From the NCBI RefSeq assembly GCF_021353265.1, contig NZ_JAJTWU010000009.1, forward strand, positions 248,001 through 312,000: DNA of 64,000 bases, in the 5' to 3' direction. Both the position numbers and the translations under genes were made by a program. This stretch comes from Pelomonas cellulosilytica (GTDB lineage Bacteria; Pseudomonadota; Gammaproteobacteria; Burkholderiales; Burkholderiaceae_C). Below the pieces are notes generated by a model that saw only the letters and a list, made by a program, of their open reading frames with translations, did no database searches and was not told where the DNA came from. Within the stretch, counting starts at the first letter, position 1. Each line of letters starts with the position of its first letter. Shown one piece after another: positions 34,412-40,361 of the stretch.

Positions 34412-34434
34412 GAATGAATGCGACAAGGAGAGTC

Positions 34435-35844
34435 ATGAACCCACCGCGCCTGCAACTGCTGCACAACCGCAGCTTCGACGAGATCGCCGTCGGCGACAGT
34501 GCCTCGCTGGAGCGCACCGTCACGGCGGCCGACCTGCAGCTCTTCGCTGTGCTGTCGGGCGACGTGAATCCGCAGCACCTGGACGCTGGCTTCGCCGCGT
34601 CCACGCGCTTCCATGGCGTCATCGCCCACGGCATGTTCGGCGGTGCGCTGATCTCGGCCGTGCTAGGAACGCGCCTGCCCGGCCCTGGCACCATCTACCT
34701 CGGCCAGACGCTGAAATTCCTCGCTCCCGTGCGCATCGGCGACGTGCTGCAGGTGTGCGTGACCGTCACGTCCCGGGAGGCCGAGCATCGCCGACTGACG
34801 CTGGCCTGCCGGTGTGTGAACCAGCAGGGGCAGACGGTCATCGAGGGCGAGGCTGAGGTCATCGCGCCGAAGGAGCGCATCGAATGGCAGGCCAGCCAGC
34901 TGCCCGAGGTGCGCCTGAGCGAGGGCGGTGGCGGCCTGGCGCGGCTGCTGGCGGCGGTGCGGCCGCTGGGCGCGGTCAAGGTGGCGGTGGTGCATCCGTG
35001 CGATGCCGTCAGCCTCGGGGCTGCGTTGGAGGCGCGTGACGCCGGCCTCATCGAGCCGGTTCTCGTCGCGCCCCGTGCCCGCGTGGAGGCCGTGGCCGCC
35101 GAGCACGGCTGGGATCTTGCCGGCATCGCCATTGACGACGTGGCTCACAGCCATGCCGCCGCCGCGCGCGCGGCCGCGTTGGCCGGGCAGGGCGAGGTGC
35201 AGGCGCTGATGAAGGGCAGCCTGCACACCGACGAGCTGATGACCGCCGTGCTGGACGCCAGCGCCGGCCTGCGCACCAGCCGCCGCGCCAGCCATTGCTT
35301 CCTGATGCAGACGCCGGCCTATCCGCGCCCGTTCATCATCACGGACGCCGCGCTCAACATCGCGCCGACGCTGGAGCACAAGGCCGATATCGTGCGCAAC
35401 GCGATCGATCTGGCCCAGGCCATCGGCGTGGCGCGGCCCAAGGTGGCCATCTTGGCGGCGGTCGAGACCGTCAACGCACACATGCCGGCGACGCTGGACG
35501 CCGCAGCGCTGTGCAAGATGGCCGACCGTGGCCAGATCACCGGCGCGGAGCTGGACGGGCCGCTGGCCTTCGACAACGCCGTCTCCATCGCCGCCGCGCG
35601 CATCAAGGGCATCCAGTCCGGCGTGGCGGGCCAGGCCGACGTGCTCGTCGTGCCCGACCTGGAGAGCGGCAACATGCTGGCCAAGCAGCTCGAATACCTG
35701 GGCGGCGCGGCCAGCGCCGGCATCGTCATGGGAGCCCGCGTGCCCATCGTGCTGACCAGCCGGGCCGACGGCGCCGAGTCCCGCATCGCCTCCTGTGCGC
35801 TGGCCGTGCTGCTGGCCCACCACTACCGGAGCACGCCGCCGTGA
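34435..35844 (+). CDS. Bifunctional enoyl-CoA hydratase (MaoC) / phosphate acyltransferase
   Basis: The product has 469 residues. Residues ~10-145 form a MaoC-like hotdog domain with FAVLSGDVNPQHLD and IAHGMFGGALISAVLG, which carries the hydratase Asp/His pair. Residues ~165-469 form a phosphate acetyl/butyryltransferase domain (ADVLVVPDLESGNMLAKQL, GIVMGARVPIVLTSRAD). Such fusions are annotated as bifunctional enzymes in PHA-producing Proteobacteria and convert acyl-CoA to acyl phosphate. The ATG at 34435 has a strong AAGGAG site. ackA overlaps its stop (GTGA), so acyl phosphate probably goes straight to the kinase. Confidence 0.9.
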   Translation: MNPPRLQLLHNRSFDEIAVGDSASLERTVTAADLQLFAVLSGDVNPQHLDAGFAASTRFHGVIAHGMFGGALISAVLGTRLPGPGTIYLGQTLKFLAPVRIGDVLQVCVTVTSREAEHRRLTLACRCVNQQGQTVIEGEAEVIAPKERIEWQASQLPEVRLSEGGGGLARLLAAVRPLGAVKVAVVHPCDAVSLGAALEARDAGLIEPVLVAPRARVEAVAAEHGWDLAGIAIDDVAHSHAAAARAAALAGQGEVQALMKGSLHTDELMTAVLDASAGLRTSRRASHCFLMQTPAYPRPFIITDAALNIAPTLEHKADIVRNAIDLAQAIGVARPKVAILAAVETVNAHMPATLDAAALCKMADRGQITGAELDGPLAFDNAVSIAAARIKGIQSGVAGQADVLVVPDLESGNMLAKQLEYLGGAASAGIVMGARVPIVLTSRADGAESRIASCALAVLLAHHYRSTPP

Positions 35845-37040
35845 GCCTCGCCTCTAACCCGCCTGCGTCGGTCGTCGTCGTGCTGAACTGCGGCTCGTCG
35901 AGCATCAAGTTCGCCCTCTTCGACGCAGGTACTCAAGACCCGCCGCGCCAGCCCTGGTGGGGCGGCAAGGTACAGGGCATCGGCAGTGGCAACGCCAGCC
36001 TTCAGGCGCAGGACGGCGTGGAGTGTTCGCTGACCCTGGGCGATGCCGAGCCGTATCACGATGCGCTGGGCGTCATCCGCGAGGCCATCCGCGCCCGTCT
36101 CGGGGCGGTGCCGGTGCGCGCCGTGACTCACCGTGTCGTCCATGGCGGCGCCCACCACGCGGCACCGCTGCGCGTCGATGCGGCCGCACTGGCTGAGTTG
36201 CGCGGATACGTCCCGCTCGCCCCGCTGCACCAGCCCTTCGCGCTGGAGGCCATGGAGGTGCTGTTGAAGCAGCGGCCCGACCTGCCCCAGGTGGCCTGCT
36301 TCGACACCGCCTTCCATCACACGCTGCCGCAGGTGGAGCAGCTGCTGCCGCTGCCCTGGTCGGCCTGGGAGCGTGGCCTGCGCCGCTACGGCTTCCACGG
36401 CCTGTCCTACGAGTACCAGTCCATCGTGCTGCCGGAGCGCCATGGCGAGCCGGCGCGCGGGCGGTGCATCGTCGCCCACCTGGGCAGCGGCGCGAGCCTT
36501 TGCGCCATGCAGGATGGGCGCAGCGTCGCGACGACGATGGGCTTCTCCGCGCTGGACGGGCTGATGATGGGCACACGCTGCGGCGCACTGGACCCGGGCG
36601 CGCTGCTCTACCTGATGGAGATCGAGGGGCTGGACGTGCATGCGGTCGGCCAGCTGCTCTATCACCAGTCCGGCCTGCTCGGTGTGTCGGGCCGCTCGGC
36701 CGACCCGCGCGAGCTCCTCGCCCACGAGGCCGACGACCCGCGCTGCGCGGCGGCGCTAGCGCTGTTCGTGCGGCGCATCGTGAGGGAGATCGGCGCGCTG
36801 GTGGCCGTGCTCGGCGGGCTGGACCTGCTGGTCTTCACGGCCGGCATCGGCGAGCACCAGGCCGAGGTGCGCCGGCGCGTCGTGGCGGGGCTGGGTTTTC
36901 TGGGCCTCGTGCTGGACGATGAAGCCAACGCGCGCAACGAGGCGGTCATTTCCGCGCCGGCCTGCGCGGTGCGGGTGGCTGTGGAGCCGACCAACGAGGA
37001 ATGGGTGGCAGCGCGTCAGGCGCTGCAGCTGCTGTCATGA
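35841..37040 (+). CDS. ackA: Acetate/propionate-family kinase
   Basis: The product has 399 residues with a GTG start inside the pta stop codon. Acetate-kinase motifs: VVLNCGSSSIKFALF at the N-terminus, THRVVHGG, CFDTAFHHTLP, YGFHGLSYEY, HLGSGASL and FTAGIGEHQ. It forms ATP and a short-chain acid from acyl phosphate, or the reverse. Together with the MaoC-Pta fusion it forms an acyl-CoA to acid module whose chain length cannot be read from sequence. Confidence 0.93.
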   Translation: MSLASNPPASVVVVLNCGSSSIKFALFDAGTQDPPRQPWWGGKVQGIGSGNASLQAQDGVECSLTLGDAEPYHDALGVIREAIRARLGAVPVRAVTHRVVHGGAHHAAPLRVDAAALAELRGYVPLAPLHQPFALEAMEVLLKQRPDLPQVACFDTAFHHTLPQVEQLLPLPWSAWERGLRRYGFHGLSYEYQSIVLPERHGEPARGRCIVAHLGSGASLCAMQDGRSVATTMGFSALDGLMMGTRCGALDPGALLYLMEIEGLDVHAVGQLLYHQSGLLGVSGRSADPRELLAHEADDPRCAAALALFVRRIVREIGALVAVLGGLDLLVFTAGIGEHQAEVRRRVVAGLGFLGLVLDDEANARNEAVISAPACAVRVAVEPTNEEWVAARQALQLLS

Positions 37041-37111
37041 CGCCCGTTGTCCCATCGCGCCGCGCGACGGCTGGTTTGCAAGCCGCCGAAGCGGCCCGCG
37101 GGCCGGCATGC

Positions 37112-37117
37112 TAGATT
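37112..37117 (+). promoter_or_regulatory. Putative -10 box before the aromatic leader peptide
   Basis: TAGATT ends 6 bases before the leader-peptide ATG at 37124. No good -35 is seen at 16-18 bases; a TTGCAA lies 30 bases upstream (37076-37081). If used, transcription would start at the leader ATG itself and give a leaderless leader peptide. Confidence 0.3.
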
Positions 37118-37123
37118 TCAGGC

Positions 37124-37186
37124 ATGTCCCGCGCTGCCTACTTTAGCTTTTGGTTTTTTCCCCGCCCCGGCGGTGGAGAGTCCTGA
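37124..37186 (+). CDS. Leader peptide rich in aromatic residues, upstream of DAHP synthase
   Basis: A 20-codon frame reads M-S-R-A-A-Y-F-S-F-W-F-F-P-R-P-G-G-G-E-S and stops at TGA 37184-37186. Six of seven consecutive residues (Y6 to F12, S8 excepted) are Tyr, Phe or Trp, the three end products of the pathway whose first enzyme is encoded next. This composition, the short length and the terminator that follows are the marks of an attenuator leader such as E. coli pheL. An AGG lies 4-5 bases before the ATG, a weak ribosome site. It is too short for normal gene finders. Confidence 0.7.
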   Translation: MSRAAYFSFWFFPRPGGGES

Positions 37187-37213
37187 GCGCGCGCGCTGAA
37201 CAGCAAACTCCCC

Positions 37214-37249
37214 AAAAACCGCCGAGGCCGCCAAGCCCGGCGGTTTTTT
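37214..37249 (+). terminator. Attenuator terminator before the DAHP synthase gene, with a possible antiterminator
   Basis: AAAAACCGCC (37214-37223) pairs perfectly with GGCGGTTTTT (37239-37248), loop of 15 bases, and the stem ends in six T: an intrinsic terminator in the leader, not after a gene. Within the last codons of the leader peptide, CGGCGGT (37168-37174) is complementary to ACCGCCG (37218-37224), the terminator's 5' arm, so it can act as an antiterminator. A ribosome stalled at the aromatic codons (37139-37159) would leave that segment free to pair and open the terminator. Confidence 0.7.
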
Positions 37250-37271
37250 GCTTTCTGAAAGGCTGACTCCG

Positions 37272-38399
37272 ATGAACGCCAAAGTCTCCTCCGTCCAACC
37301 CGAAGCCCAGCGCTGGTACTCCCAGGACGACAAGACCAGCGCCACCGATGACGAGCGCATCGTCGACGTGACGCCGCTGCCGCCGCCGGAGCACCTGATC
37401 CGCTTCTTCCCCATCCGCGGCACCGTGATGGAGAACCTGATCAGCCAGACGCGCCAGCGCATCCGCCAGATCATGAGCGGCAAGGACGACCGGTTGCTCG
37501 TCGTCATCGGCCCCTGCTCCATCCACGACCCGACCGCGGCCATCGAGTACGCCCGCAAGCTCAAGGAGCAGCGCGAGAAGTACGCCGGCACGCTGGAGAT
37601 CGTCATGCGCGTCTACTTCGAGAAGCCGCGCACCACGGTGGGCTGGAAGGGGCTCATCAACGACCCCTATCTCGACGAGAGCTACCGCATCGACGAGGGC
37701 CTGCGCATCGCGCGCCAGTTGCTGCTGGAGATCAACCGCCTAGGCATGCCGGCCGGCAGCGAGTTCCTGGACGTCATCTCGCCGCAGTACATCGGCGACC
37801 TGATCTCCTGGGGTGCCATCGGCGCCCGCACGACCGAGAGCCAGGTGCACCGCGAGCTGGCTTCGGGCCTGTCGGCGCCCATCGGCTTCAAGAATGGCAC
37901 TGATGGCAATATCAAGATCGCGACCGACGCGATCCAGGCCGCCGCCCGCGGCCACCATTTCCTGTCGGTGCACAAGAACGGCCAGGTCGCCATTGTCGAG
38001 ACGCGCGGCAACGCAGACTGCCATGTCATCCTGCGTGGCGGCAAGGCGCCCAACTATGACGCCAAGAGCGTGGCCGAAGCTTGTGCGGACCTCGACAAGG
38101 CCAAGCTGGCGCAGCGCCTGATGGTGGACTGCTCGCACGCCAACTCCAGCAAGCAGCACAGCCGCCAGCTCGACGTGGCGCGCGACATCGCCGGCCAGCT
38201 GCGCGAGGGCAGCAACAGCGTCTTCGGCGTCATGGTGGAAAGCCACCTGAACGACGGCGCCCAGAAGTTCACGCCCGGCAAGGACGACCCGGCCACGCTG
38301 CAATACGGCAAGAGCATCACCGACGCCTGCCTGGGCTGGGATGATTCGCTCGCCGTGCTGGACGTGCTGAGTGAGGCGGTCAAGGCGCGGCGCGGCTGA
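37272..38399 (+). CDS. aroG: 3-deoxy-7-phosphoheptulonate (DAHP) synthase, class I
   Basis: The product has 375 residues. It condenses PEP and erythrose 4-phosphate, the first step of the shikimate pathway. Typical motifs: LLVVIGPCSIHDP, MRVYFEKPRTTVGWKG, GARTTESQVHRELASGL, FKNGTDG, DCSHANSSKQH and VMVESHLNDG (a metal and PEP site). The AroF/G/H type cannot be separated with certainty. The ATG at 37272 has AAAGG upstream and lies 23 bases after the attenuator T-run. The gene is thus likely controlled by aromatic amino-acid supply. An intrinsic terminator follows. Confidence 0.94.
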   Translation: MNAKVSSVQPEAQRWYSQDDKTSATDDERIVDVTPLPPPEHLIRFFPIRGTVMENLISQTRQRIRQIMSGKDDRLLVVIGPCSIHDPTAAIEYARKLKEQREKYAGTLEIVMRVYFEKPRTTVGWKGLINDPYLDESYRIDEGLRIARQLLLEINRLGMPAGSEFLDVISPQYIGDLISWGAIGARTTESQVHRELASGLSAPIGFKNGTDGNIKIATDAIQAAARGHHFLSVHKNGQVAIVETRGNADCHVILRGGKAPNYDAKSVAEACADLDKAKLAQRLMVDCSHANSSKQHSRQLDVARDIAGQLREGSNSVFGVMVESHLNDGAQKFTPGKDDPATLQYGKSITDACLGWDDSLAVLDVLSEAVKARRG

Positions 38400-38429
38400 G
38401 AGAATTCCCGCACAGCCTCTTGAATCCCT

Positions 38430-38465
38430 GAAACGCGGCCCGATATTGGCCGCGTTTCGCTTTTT
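38430..38465 (+). terminator. Intrinsic terminator after the DAHP synthase gene
   Basis: GAAACGCGGCC (38430-38440) pairs perfectly with GGCCGCGTTTC (38448-38458) around a 7-base loop, followed by GC and five T. It separates the DAHP synthase gene from htpG. Confidence 0.85.
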
Positions 38466-38480
38466 CAGACCCAACCCGCC

Positions 38481-40361
38481 ATGACCAAGCAAACCCACGC
38501 TTTCCAGGCCGAAGTCAAGCAGATCCTGCACCTCGTCACCCACAGCCTGTACTCCAACAAGGAGATCTTCCTTCGCGAGCTGGTGAGCAACGCCAGCGAC
38601 GCCTGCGACAAGCTGCGCTTCGAAGCGCTGGACAACGCGGCGCTGTGGGAAGACCAGCCCAACCTCGAAGTCCGCATCAAGTTCGATGAAGAGGCCAAGA
38701 CGCTGACGATCAGCGACAACGGCATCGGCATGAGCGCCGAAGAAGCCGCGGCGCACCTGGGCACCATTGCCAAGAGCGGCACGCGCGAGTTCATGGCCAA
38801 GCTGGACGGCGACCAGAAGAAGGACGCTCAGCTCATCGGCCAGTTCGGCGTGGGCTTCTACTCGGGCTTCATCGTCGCCGACCGCATCACCGTCGAGACC
38901 CGCCGCGCCGGGCTGCCGGCCGACCAGGGCGTGCGCTGGACCAGTGAAGGTACCGGCGAGTACGACCTGGAAACCATCACCAAGGAAGGCCGTGGCACCG
39001 ACGTCATCCTGCATTTGCGCGAGGGCGAGGAAGAGTTCCTGAAGACCTGGCGCGTGAAGTCCACCGTCAGCAAGTACAGCGACCACATCTCACTGCCTAT
39101 CCTGATGCGCAAGGAGACCTGGGATGCCGAGAACGCGAAGCAGGTCGTCACCGACGAATGGGAGCCGGTCAACAAGGCCTCTGCGCTTTGGACGCGCAGC
39201 AAGAGCGACATCACGGCAGAGCAGTACGAGGAGTTCTACAAGCAGATCTCGTACGACACCGAGGCGCCACTGGCCTACACGCACAACCGTGTCGAGGGCC
39301 GCAGCGAGTACACGCAGCTCCTCTACATCCCCAAAAAGGCGCCGTTCGATCTGTGGAACCGCGACAAGCGTGGCGGCGTCAAGCTGTACGTGAAGCGCGT
39401 CTTCATCATGGACGACGCCGAGGCGCTGATGCCGGTCTACCTGCGCTTCGTGAAGGGCGTGATCGACTCGGCCGACCTGCCGCTGAACGTGTCGCGCGAG
39501 CTGCTGCAGGAAAGCCGCGACGTGAAGGCGATCCGCGAGGGTTCGACCAAGCGGGTGCTGGGCATGCTGGAAAGCCTCGCCAACAGCGATGACGCCGCCG
39601 AGAAGCAGAAGTACGCCGAGTTCTGGAAGGACTTTGGCCAGGTGCTGAAGGAAGGCATCGGCGAGGACCATGCCAACCAGGAGCGCCTGGCCAAGCTGTT
39701 CCGCTTCGCGTCCACGCACGCGGACGAAGGCGTGAGCCTGGCCGACTATGTGTCGCGCATGAAGGAAGGCCAAGAGACCATCTACTACATCACCGCCGAC
39801 TCGCTGGCCGCGGCCAAGCACAGCCCGCAGCTGGAGATCTTCCGCAAGAAGGGCATCGAGGTGCTGTTGCTGGTGGACCGCGTCGACGAGTGGATGCTGA
39901 GCCACCTCTACGAATTCGACGGCAAGCAATTGCAGTCCGTCGCCAAGGGGTCTGTCGATCTCGGCAAGCTGCAGGACGAGGAAGAAAAGAAGAAGGCTGA
40001 GGCCACTGCCGAGGCCTTCAAGCCGCTGGTCGACAAGCTCAAGGAAGCGCTGAAGGACCGCGCCAAGGACGTGCGCGTGACGACCCGCCTCGTTGACTCG
40101 CCGGCCTGCATCGTCGTGGAAGAAGGCGACGTCAGCGGCCACCTGGCCCGCCTGCTGAAGCAGGCTGGCCAGCAGGCGCCCGAGAGCAAGCCGACGCTCG
40201 AGATCAACCCCGACCACGCCCTCGTCAAGCGCCTGGACAACAGTGCGCATTTCGATGACCTGGCCCAGGTGCTGTTCGACCAGGCCGTGCTGGCCGAAGG
40301 CGGCCACCTGGAAGACCCGGCCGCCTACGTCCGCCGCGTCAACGCGATGCTGGTCGGTTGA
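38481..40361 (+). CDS. htpG: Chaperone HtpG (Hsp90)
   Basis: The product has 626 residues, full length for the family. The N-terminal ATPase domain has [18 protein letters not shown], the ISDNGIGM loop and [11 protein letters not shown] lid region. The middle domain has [17 protein letters not shown] and [11 protein letters not shown] with the conserved Arg contacting ATP. The C-terminal dimerisation domain ends without a charged MEEVD tail, as in bacteria. No HrcA/CIRCE or clear sigma-32 promoter is recognised in the 80-base gap, which is mostly filled by the preceding terminator. Confidence 0.97.

Follow-up and report, generated by a model that had tools for sequence, protein, structure and literature searches.

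A putative ribosome-mediated attenuator with Phe, Tyr and Trp codons upstream of DAHP synthase in Pelomonas cellulosilytica and other Burkholderiales

Aromatic synthesis begins with DAHP synthase, whose gene in Pelomonas cellulosilytica is considered here. In E. coli, TyrR and TrpR control the DAHP synthases, and among 196 reference proteobacterial genomes both regulators occur in gammaproteobacterial groups and are absent in other classes (PMC5343134). Searching the Pelomonas genome with PF01371 and TIGR04381 returned no match to TrpR or TyrR, the E. coli control being positive in both. This fits the contrast with E. coli drawn in an earlier note on the analysed stretch of DNA (64,000 nucleotides, hereafter the window, to which positions refer unless another locus is named), which had proposed an aromatic leader-peptide attenuator upstream of the gene. 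Our analysis indicates that the leader is very probably a ribosome-mediated transcription attenuator of DAHP synthase, whose signal would be the supply of charged tRNA for Phe, Tyr and Trp. The features of the locus are the following.

37109-37117, + strand: extended -10-like box TGCTAGATT (hexamer TAGATT at 37112-37117), 6 nt before the leader ATG, recognised from the alignment.
37124-37186, + strand: leader ORF MSRAAYFSFWFFPRPGGGES of 20 codons, from ATG 37124-37126 to TGA 37184-37186.
37139-37159, + strand: putative control codons 6-12, Y-F-S-F-W-F-F (TAC TTT AGC TTT TGG TTT TTT), from sequence and codon bias.
37156-37165, + strand: segment 1, predicted to pair with segment 2 in the 1:2 hairpin (anti-antiterminator); fold of -14.5 kcal/mol.
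37168-37181, + strand: segment 2 CGGCGGTGGAGAGT, predicted partner of segment 1 or segment 3, from folding and covariation.
37207-37228, + strand: segment 3, with an outer part (37207-37213) used in the antiterminator only and a core ACCGCCG (37218-37224) common to the terminator; predicted antiterminator of -31.0 kcal/mol, z -2.94.
37214-37249, + strand: predicted intrinsic terminator (segments 3:4), 11 bp (37214-37224/37238-37248) with a T run at 37244-37249; -36.4 kcal/mol, z -3.25.
37272-38399, + strand: DAHP synthase (3-deoxy-7-phosphoheptulonate synthase, aroF/G/H type, class I), the putative regulated gene, from profile matches (NCBIfam TIGR00034, 537.9 bits against a cut-off of 173.2; Pfam PF00793).

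Re-reading of the sequence placed the 20-codon frame and its Y-F-S-F-W-F-F run exactly where the earlier note had put them, and a short leader ORF with end-product codons is thus found upstream of a biosynthetic gene, as expected of an attenuator. When the 400 nt preceding the DAHP synthase gene were shuffled 2000 times by mononucleotide, no short ORF with six of eight residues aromatic arose, and five of eight were reached in 3 of the 2000. Scanning the 64 kb on both strands in 636 overlapping 400-nt windows yielded six of eight aromatics twice, both times in windows containing the leader itself, and five of eight in two further windows. The aromatic leader is beyond chance, and conservation is its strongest support.

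Comparison of DAHP synthase loci, taken as the best 80 of 593 stretches and hence favouring close relatives, revealed a terminator and an 18-30-codon leader rich in aromatic residues ahead of the gene in 63 of the 79 usable loci (L027, with 16 nt upstream, was dropped; L014 was retained with a score of 4, and the L071 leader was placed by eye). The other 16 of these 79 showed no leader within 400 nt upstream. They comprise Cupriavidus and Polynucleobacter loci (L024, L025, L026, L028, L035), a MAG locus (L055), loci of Azoarcus, Thauera, Rhodocyclus and Thioalkalivibrio, three Methylotenera loci, and three MAG loci named for other phyla.

We then used R1, a covariance model built from 44 of the 64 leader sequences (the 63 loci and the window). 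Its single full-length match in the Pelomonas genome is the window locus. Across the order, R1 gave 102 strong full-length matches (E at most 2.1e-7), spread over 101 of 399 genomes and 14 family groups. Among these are each of the 12 genomes listed for the family to which the window belongs, a family absent from the no-match genomes listed (20 of 242). The earlier note had suggested comparing the leader codons and both pairings among related Burkholderiales; the comparison supports it, both in the 63 of 79 usable loci and order-wide, where every one of the 102 strong matches immediately precedes a DAHP synthase gene in the same orientation. In the 101 matches other than the window, the T run ends at most 153 nt before the first aligned DAHP synthase codon, the alignment in four of them starting 15-36 nt before the end of the T run. 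Of eight weaker places also examined, five are not before DAHP synthase and three are. One of these three, L194, has the leader MRLIVYAFAFYFGLPAGGGRVPEPARQ; the other two, L191 (MNLIHPAPTRFSRPPHPAAGDR) and L192 (MHASPRPLRFCRPRSTAVGRQ), show an attenuator layout (bases ~100-420) whose leader frame has almost no aromatic codons, as if the structure had been kept after codon loss or were sensing something else.

Outside the order, 274 genomes drawn from the class contained two with the element before DAHP synthase, L197 (MNAARASFYFWYYFPKPLAEEGLRSP) and L198, which has a GTG start. These two loci belong to one family of the class, and their DAHP synthases are 61% and 59% identical to that of the window. 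Three weaker class-wide matches (L199, L200, L202) have no DAHP synthase, and the window piece found no match in plasmids. A locus from another group of the class, L201 (1444 to ~1650), carries a distant DAHP synthase (35% identity) behind a different aromatic leader, MSHSTVHQKLNRKAAFKQAVACFFYFSFFSPALGG, and a terminator-like hairpin, and thus appears to follow the same logic with a different sequence. The Rfam models matching within 36000-39000 at E up to 1 (ar7, ar35, rnk_pseudo, BSR0602) scored below their gathering scores and were rejected as chance; no T-box is among these four.

Phe codons are present in all 64 leaders, Tyr in 63, Trp in 51 and all three in 50. A larger set of 163 leaders, 99 of them picked partly on aromatic score, contains Phe in 163, Tyr in 153, Trp in 99 and all three in 94; it comprises 151 distinct peptides, and since some genomes repeat species of the first locus set its leaders are not independent. 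Ten of the 109 loci L088-L196 were left out of it, five with a DAHP synthase and a score below 4 or missed by the pattern (L170, L187, L191, L192, L194) and five without the enzyme (L189, L190, L193, L195, L196). The Phe codons of the 64 leaders are biased to TTT (184 TTT, 97 TTC), compared with 86 TTT and 412 TTC in the first 340 aligned codons of the DAHP synthases of the same loci. Leader codon choice has been tied to sensitivity (PMC1183508); the bias could alternatively come from a need for U-rich RNA. The L014 leader, MRTTVRYHFWHFHIQHLTGAGVANA (1017-1094), mixes His codons with its Phe, Tyr and Trp codons.

Alignment of the leaders revealed a further element. In 50 of the 163 leaders, the window included, the motif TGnTAnAnT precedes the ATG by 6-8 nt, for 0.2 expected from shuffles. 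A consensus scan found no sigma-70 promoter, the -10-like box emerging from the alignment instead, and in Burkholderia-like loci a -10-like sequence lies farther upstream of the leader. A Shine-Dalgarno-like 4-mer precedes the ATG in 9 of the 163 leaders, that of the window not being among them, and is found at 9 of the 13 DAHP synthase starts checked. The simplest reading for the 50 box-bearing leaders is that transcription starts at or next to the ATG and that translation is hence leaderless, as suggested at the window by the box 6 nt before the ATG together with the lack of a Shine-Dalgarno site. The elements that the earlier note had described in the leader stand; this box and the TTT bias are additions to it. 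ORFs read from the first base of the transcript are described for S. meliloti trpL/rnTrpL and for leaderless Streptomyces leaders (PMC7298713, PMC8079986), which differ in their amino acids (Trp, Leu and others) and in the genes they precede; the start proposed here is deduced from the -10 spacing.

Folding of the leader region predicts a textbook 1:2 / 2:3 / 3:4 layout, the scheme that, with an intrinsic terminator, characterises the E. coli attenuators (PMC1183508). The whole leader folds at -51.6 kcal/mol (z -2.29), with 3 of 200 shuffles as good. The terminator, whose fold was computed without the first bases of segment 2, has the position (37214-37248) and the spacing of 23 nt before the DAHP synthase ATG first claimed for it, with 11 base pairs and not 10. 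The reported complementarity of CGGCGGT (37168-37174) to ACCGCCG (37218-37224) is correct at both positions, and the 2:3 and 3:4 structures are indeed mutually exclusive; what had been missed is the 1:2 hairpin and the outer pairing that lengthens the antiterminator (37175-37181 with 37207-37213). When segment 1 is excluded from the fold, the antiterminator is predicted to pair 37164-37166, 37168-37176 and 37178-37181 on its 5' side with 37207-37210, 37212-37213, 37218-37224 and 37226-37228 on its 3' side. Segment 1 consists of the last aromatic codons and the bases after them, and in the fold of the region it pairs with segment 2 through GCGG (37170-37173) and GGAGAG (37175-37180).

Run on the 64-sequence alignment, RNAalifold predicted the terminator alone and not the other two helices, after which these were tested in each sequence, the 2:3 helix also on the named structure. 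The terminator, located between leader and gene, has a pairing probability above 0.5 in 64 of 64 sequences. The antiterminator, exclusive with it, exceeds 0.5 in 62 of 64 (L006 and L053 being kept as failures though segment 3 or 2 was misplaced in them) and in 154 of the larger set of 163, where no segment 2 was found in three and the probability was low in six. The 1:2 hairpin is seen by folding only, with the tail of segment 2 paired upstream in 63 of 64 sequences and its GGCGG centre in 34 of 64. Replacing segment 1 by that of another species makes the 1:2 pairing only a little weaker (-5.64 own vs -5.15 swapped); the same control gives -5.49 own vs -4.29 swapped for the outer part of 2:3.

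Selection acts on the leader at the RNA level. Among the 64 leaders, the reading frame across the GGCGG of segment 2 is 0 in 30, 2 in 32 and 1 in 2, L053 standing in the wrong class and frame in these counts through segment misplacement; in the larger set, frames 2, 0 and 1 occur in 102, 43 and 9 of 154 leaders. As segment 2 is read in different frames, it is the RNA that is conserved and not the peptide. In 63 distinct rows, the outer 2:3 pair is C-G in 32, U-A in 16, U-G in 3, A-U in 2 and unpaired in 10, and the same segment 3 base forms with segment 4 G-C in 39, A-U in 21, U-A in 2 and another combination in 1. The covariation score was reached by none of 500 shuffles in either helix, the shuffles ignoring kinship, and sliding the pairing partner lowered it in both. 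The signal comes from one or two pairs that vary, beside a GGCGG core of five pairs that is nearly invariant, and at the variable 2:3 position of the larger set 117 of 154 leaders can pair and 37 have no standard pair. Compared with leaders recoded by synonymous codons sampled from the whole leader set, the native antiterminator was stronger than the randomised mean in 150 of 154 leaders and the 1:2 hairpin in 117 of 154. Support for the 1:2 hairpin is weaker than for the antiterminator.

These elements suggest the following mechanism. Transcription would start at or within about 2 bases of the leader ATG, and a ribosome would translate the 20 codons. With charged Phe, Tyr and Trp tRNAs plentiful, it would reach the stop codon and cover segment 2; segments 3 and 4 would then pair, and RNA polymerase would stop at about 37249. 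With one of these tRNAs short, the ribosome would stall on the aromatic codons and cover segment 1, leaving segment 2 free to form the long antiterminator with segment 3, so that no terminator would arise and DAHP synthase would be transcribed. If the leader were not translated, the 1:2 hairpin could free segment 3 for the terminator. One gene might in this way respond to a shortage of any of the three amino acids.

We modelled ribosome positions at the window by equilibrium folding of the remaining RNA, assuming a leading edge 13 nt downstream of the A-site codon's first base. The predicted terminator probability is 0.89-0.98 for stalls at codons 1-5, 0.55-0.66 at codons 6-8, 0.41 at Phe9 and 0.0 at Trp10 and Phe11; it returns to 0.99 at Phe12, where the ribosome edge cuts into segment 2, and stays at 1.0 for codon 13 and every later position up to the stop. 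All 154 leaders are predicted to have one or more aromatic stalls that permit 2:3 before segment 4 exists. With no ribosome and before segment 4 is made, 2:3 is disfavoured in 83 of 154 and still favoured in 71 of 154, so that termination without translation is not a uniform prediction.

The same numbers bear on a narrower reading, in which the attenuator is real and effectively senses Phe (with Trp or Tyr), the other aromatic codons being filler or drift. We regard this as a serious possibility, somewhat short of an even case. The ranking of Phe, Tyr and Trp across the 163 leaders, subject to their selection on aromatic score, agrees with it, as does the folding, in which only stalls at Trp10 and Phe11 abolish the terminator of the window at equilibrium and a stall at Tyr6 leaves it at 0.55. 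The C. glutamicum aroF leader, with its F-Y-F run, is likewise described as responding to Phe and not to Tyr (PMC11802643). Against it, Tyr is kept in 153 of the 163 leaders, only one other position of the window is as sensitive as Trp10, and an equilibrium model ignores kinetics. More broadly, and more doubtfully, a leaderless Phe/Tyr/Trp sensor could be the main control of shikimate entry in much of the Burkholderiales, replacing TyrR and TrpR and graded by codon position, with a leader RNA that possibly acts in trans.

Such action in trans, by the terminated leader RNA (~125 nt) or by its peptide, would resemble that of rnTrpL/peTrpL in Sinorhizobium meliloti. A leaderless start and a terminated leader RNA are the layout shared with S. 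meliloti rnTrpL, which starts at the trpL ATG (PMC7298713), but the peptide is unconserved beyond its aromatic class and segment 2 is read in different frames, and we find this addition unlikely.

Nascent-chain arrest or metabolite sensing by the peptide, in place of slow decoding, is very improbable. A short hydrophobic peptide is indeed retained upstream of DAHP synthase, as such a reading would have it. TnaC-type arrest peptides are conserved and have invariant arrest residues; no such residues are found among the 163 leaders, in which F, Y and W interchange across the 151 distinct peptides and the C-terminal residues shift with the frame while the RNA stays. Hardly tenable at all is the idea of a chance ORF beside the ordinary terminator of the upstream gene, presumably acetate-kinase-like by motif: that gene's frame closes at 37040, just ahead of the leader, and is indeed followed by the terminator, but leader and terminator stay with DAHP synthase despite differing upstream sequence (one upstream gene-end motif is matched by 33 of the 163 and not by 130), and the aromatic coding, the frame-independent segment 2 and the covariation would be left unexplained.

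Ribosome-mediated attenuation by Phe, Tyr and Trp tRNA thus remains our preferred reading, and attenuation before DAHP synthase is already known in principle. The precedent is C. glutamicum, where the aroR leader (Phe-Tyr-Phe) precedes aroF and ribosome-mediated attenuation is described (PMC11802643, PMC4046766). As judged by described features, the two share a short aromatic leader peptide upstream of a DAHP synthase gene, and differ in that C. glutamicum is an Actinobacterium whose description at hand mentions a response to Phe but not to Tyr, and no Trp. Attenuation has also been proposed for the uORFC-13-1 motif upstream of aroF in Acholeplasma, with 24 representatives (PMC8632094). By its description, this motif resembles the present element in placing a terminator and a uORF that contains one or more Phe codons ahead of a DAHP synthase gene, and differs in being confined to Acholeplasma and unknown organisms, with Phe alone mentioned. 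The E. coli trp, pheA and pheST attenuators share end-product codons in the leader and ribosome stalling (PMC11802643), but concern other genes and one amino acid each. A search of the open-licence literature found no description of this element in Burkholderiales; the 82 5'UTRs giving short transcripts in Burkholderia cenocepacia might include it (PMC5688073). The particular trait of this widespread element is that Phe, Tyr and Trp codons occur in it side by side. Such an element would explain the control of the entry step in a large bacterial group; it names codons and pairings, gives a searchable RNA model, and points producers of aromatic compounds to a site where control could be relieved.

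The genome encodes a second DAHP synthase (L082), which, with its start taken as 1309, begins 28 nt after the upstream open frame. This spacing is too short to accommodate a leader, and it may therefore be the attenuated copy that is adjustable. A third PF00793 match (L083) is one we take to be KDO-8-phosphate-synthase-like. Downstream of the attenuated gene, a strong terminator-like hairpin of 12 pairs occupies 38429-38459, between DAHP synthase and an HSP90-like gene at 38481, so that DAHP synthase is probably transcribed alone. Farther upstream, a single frame at 34414-35844 combines a MaoC-like domain with a phosphate acetyl/butyryl transferase domain (Pfam).
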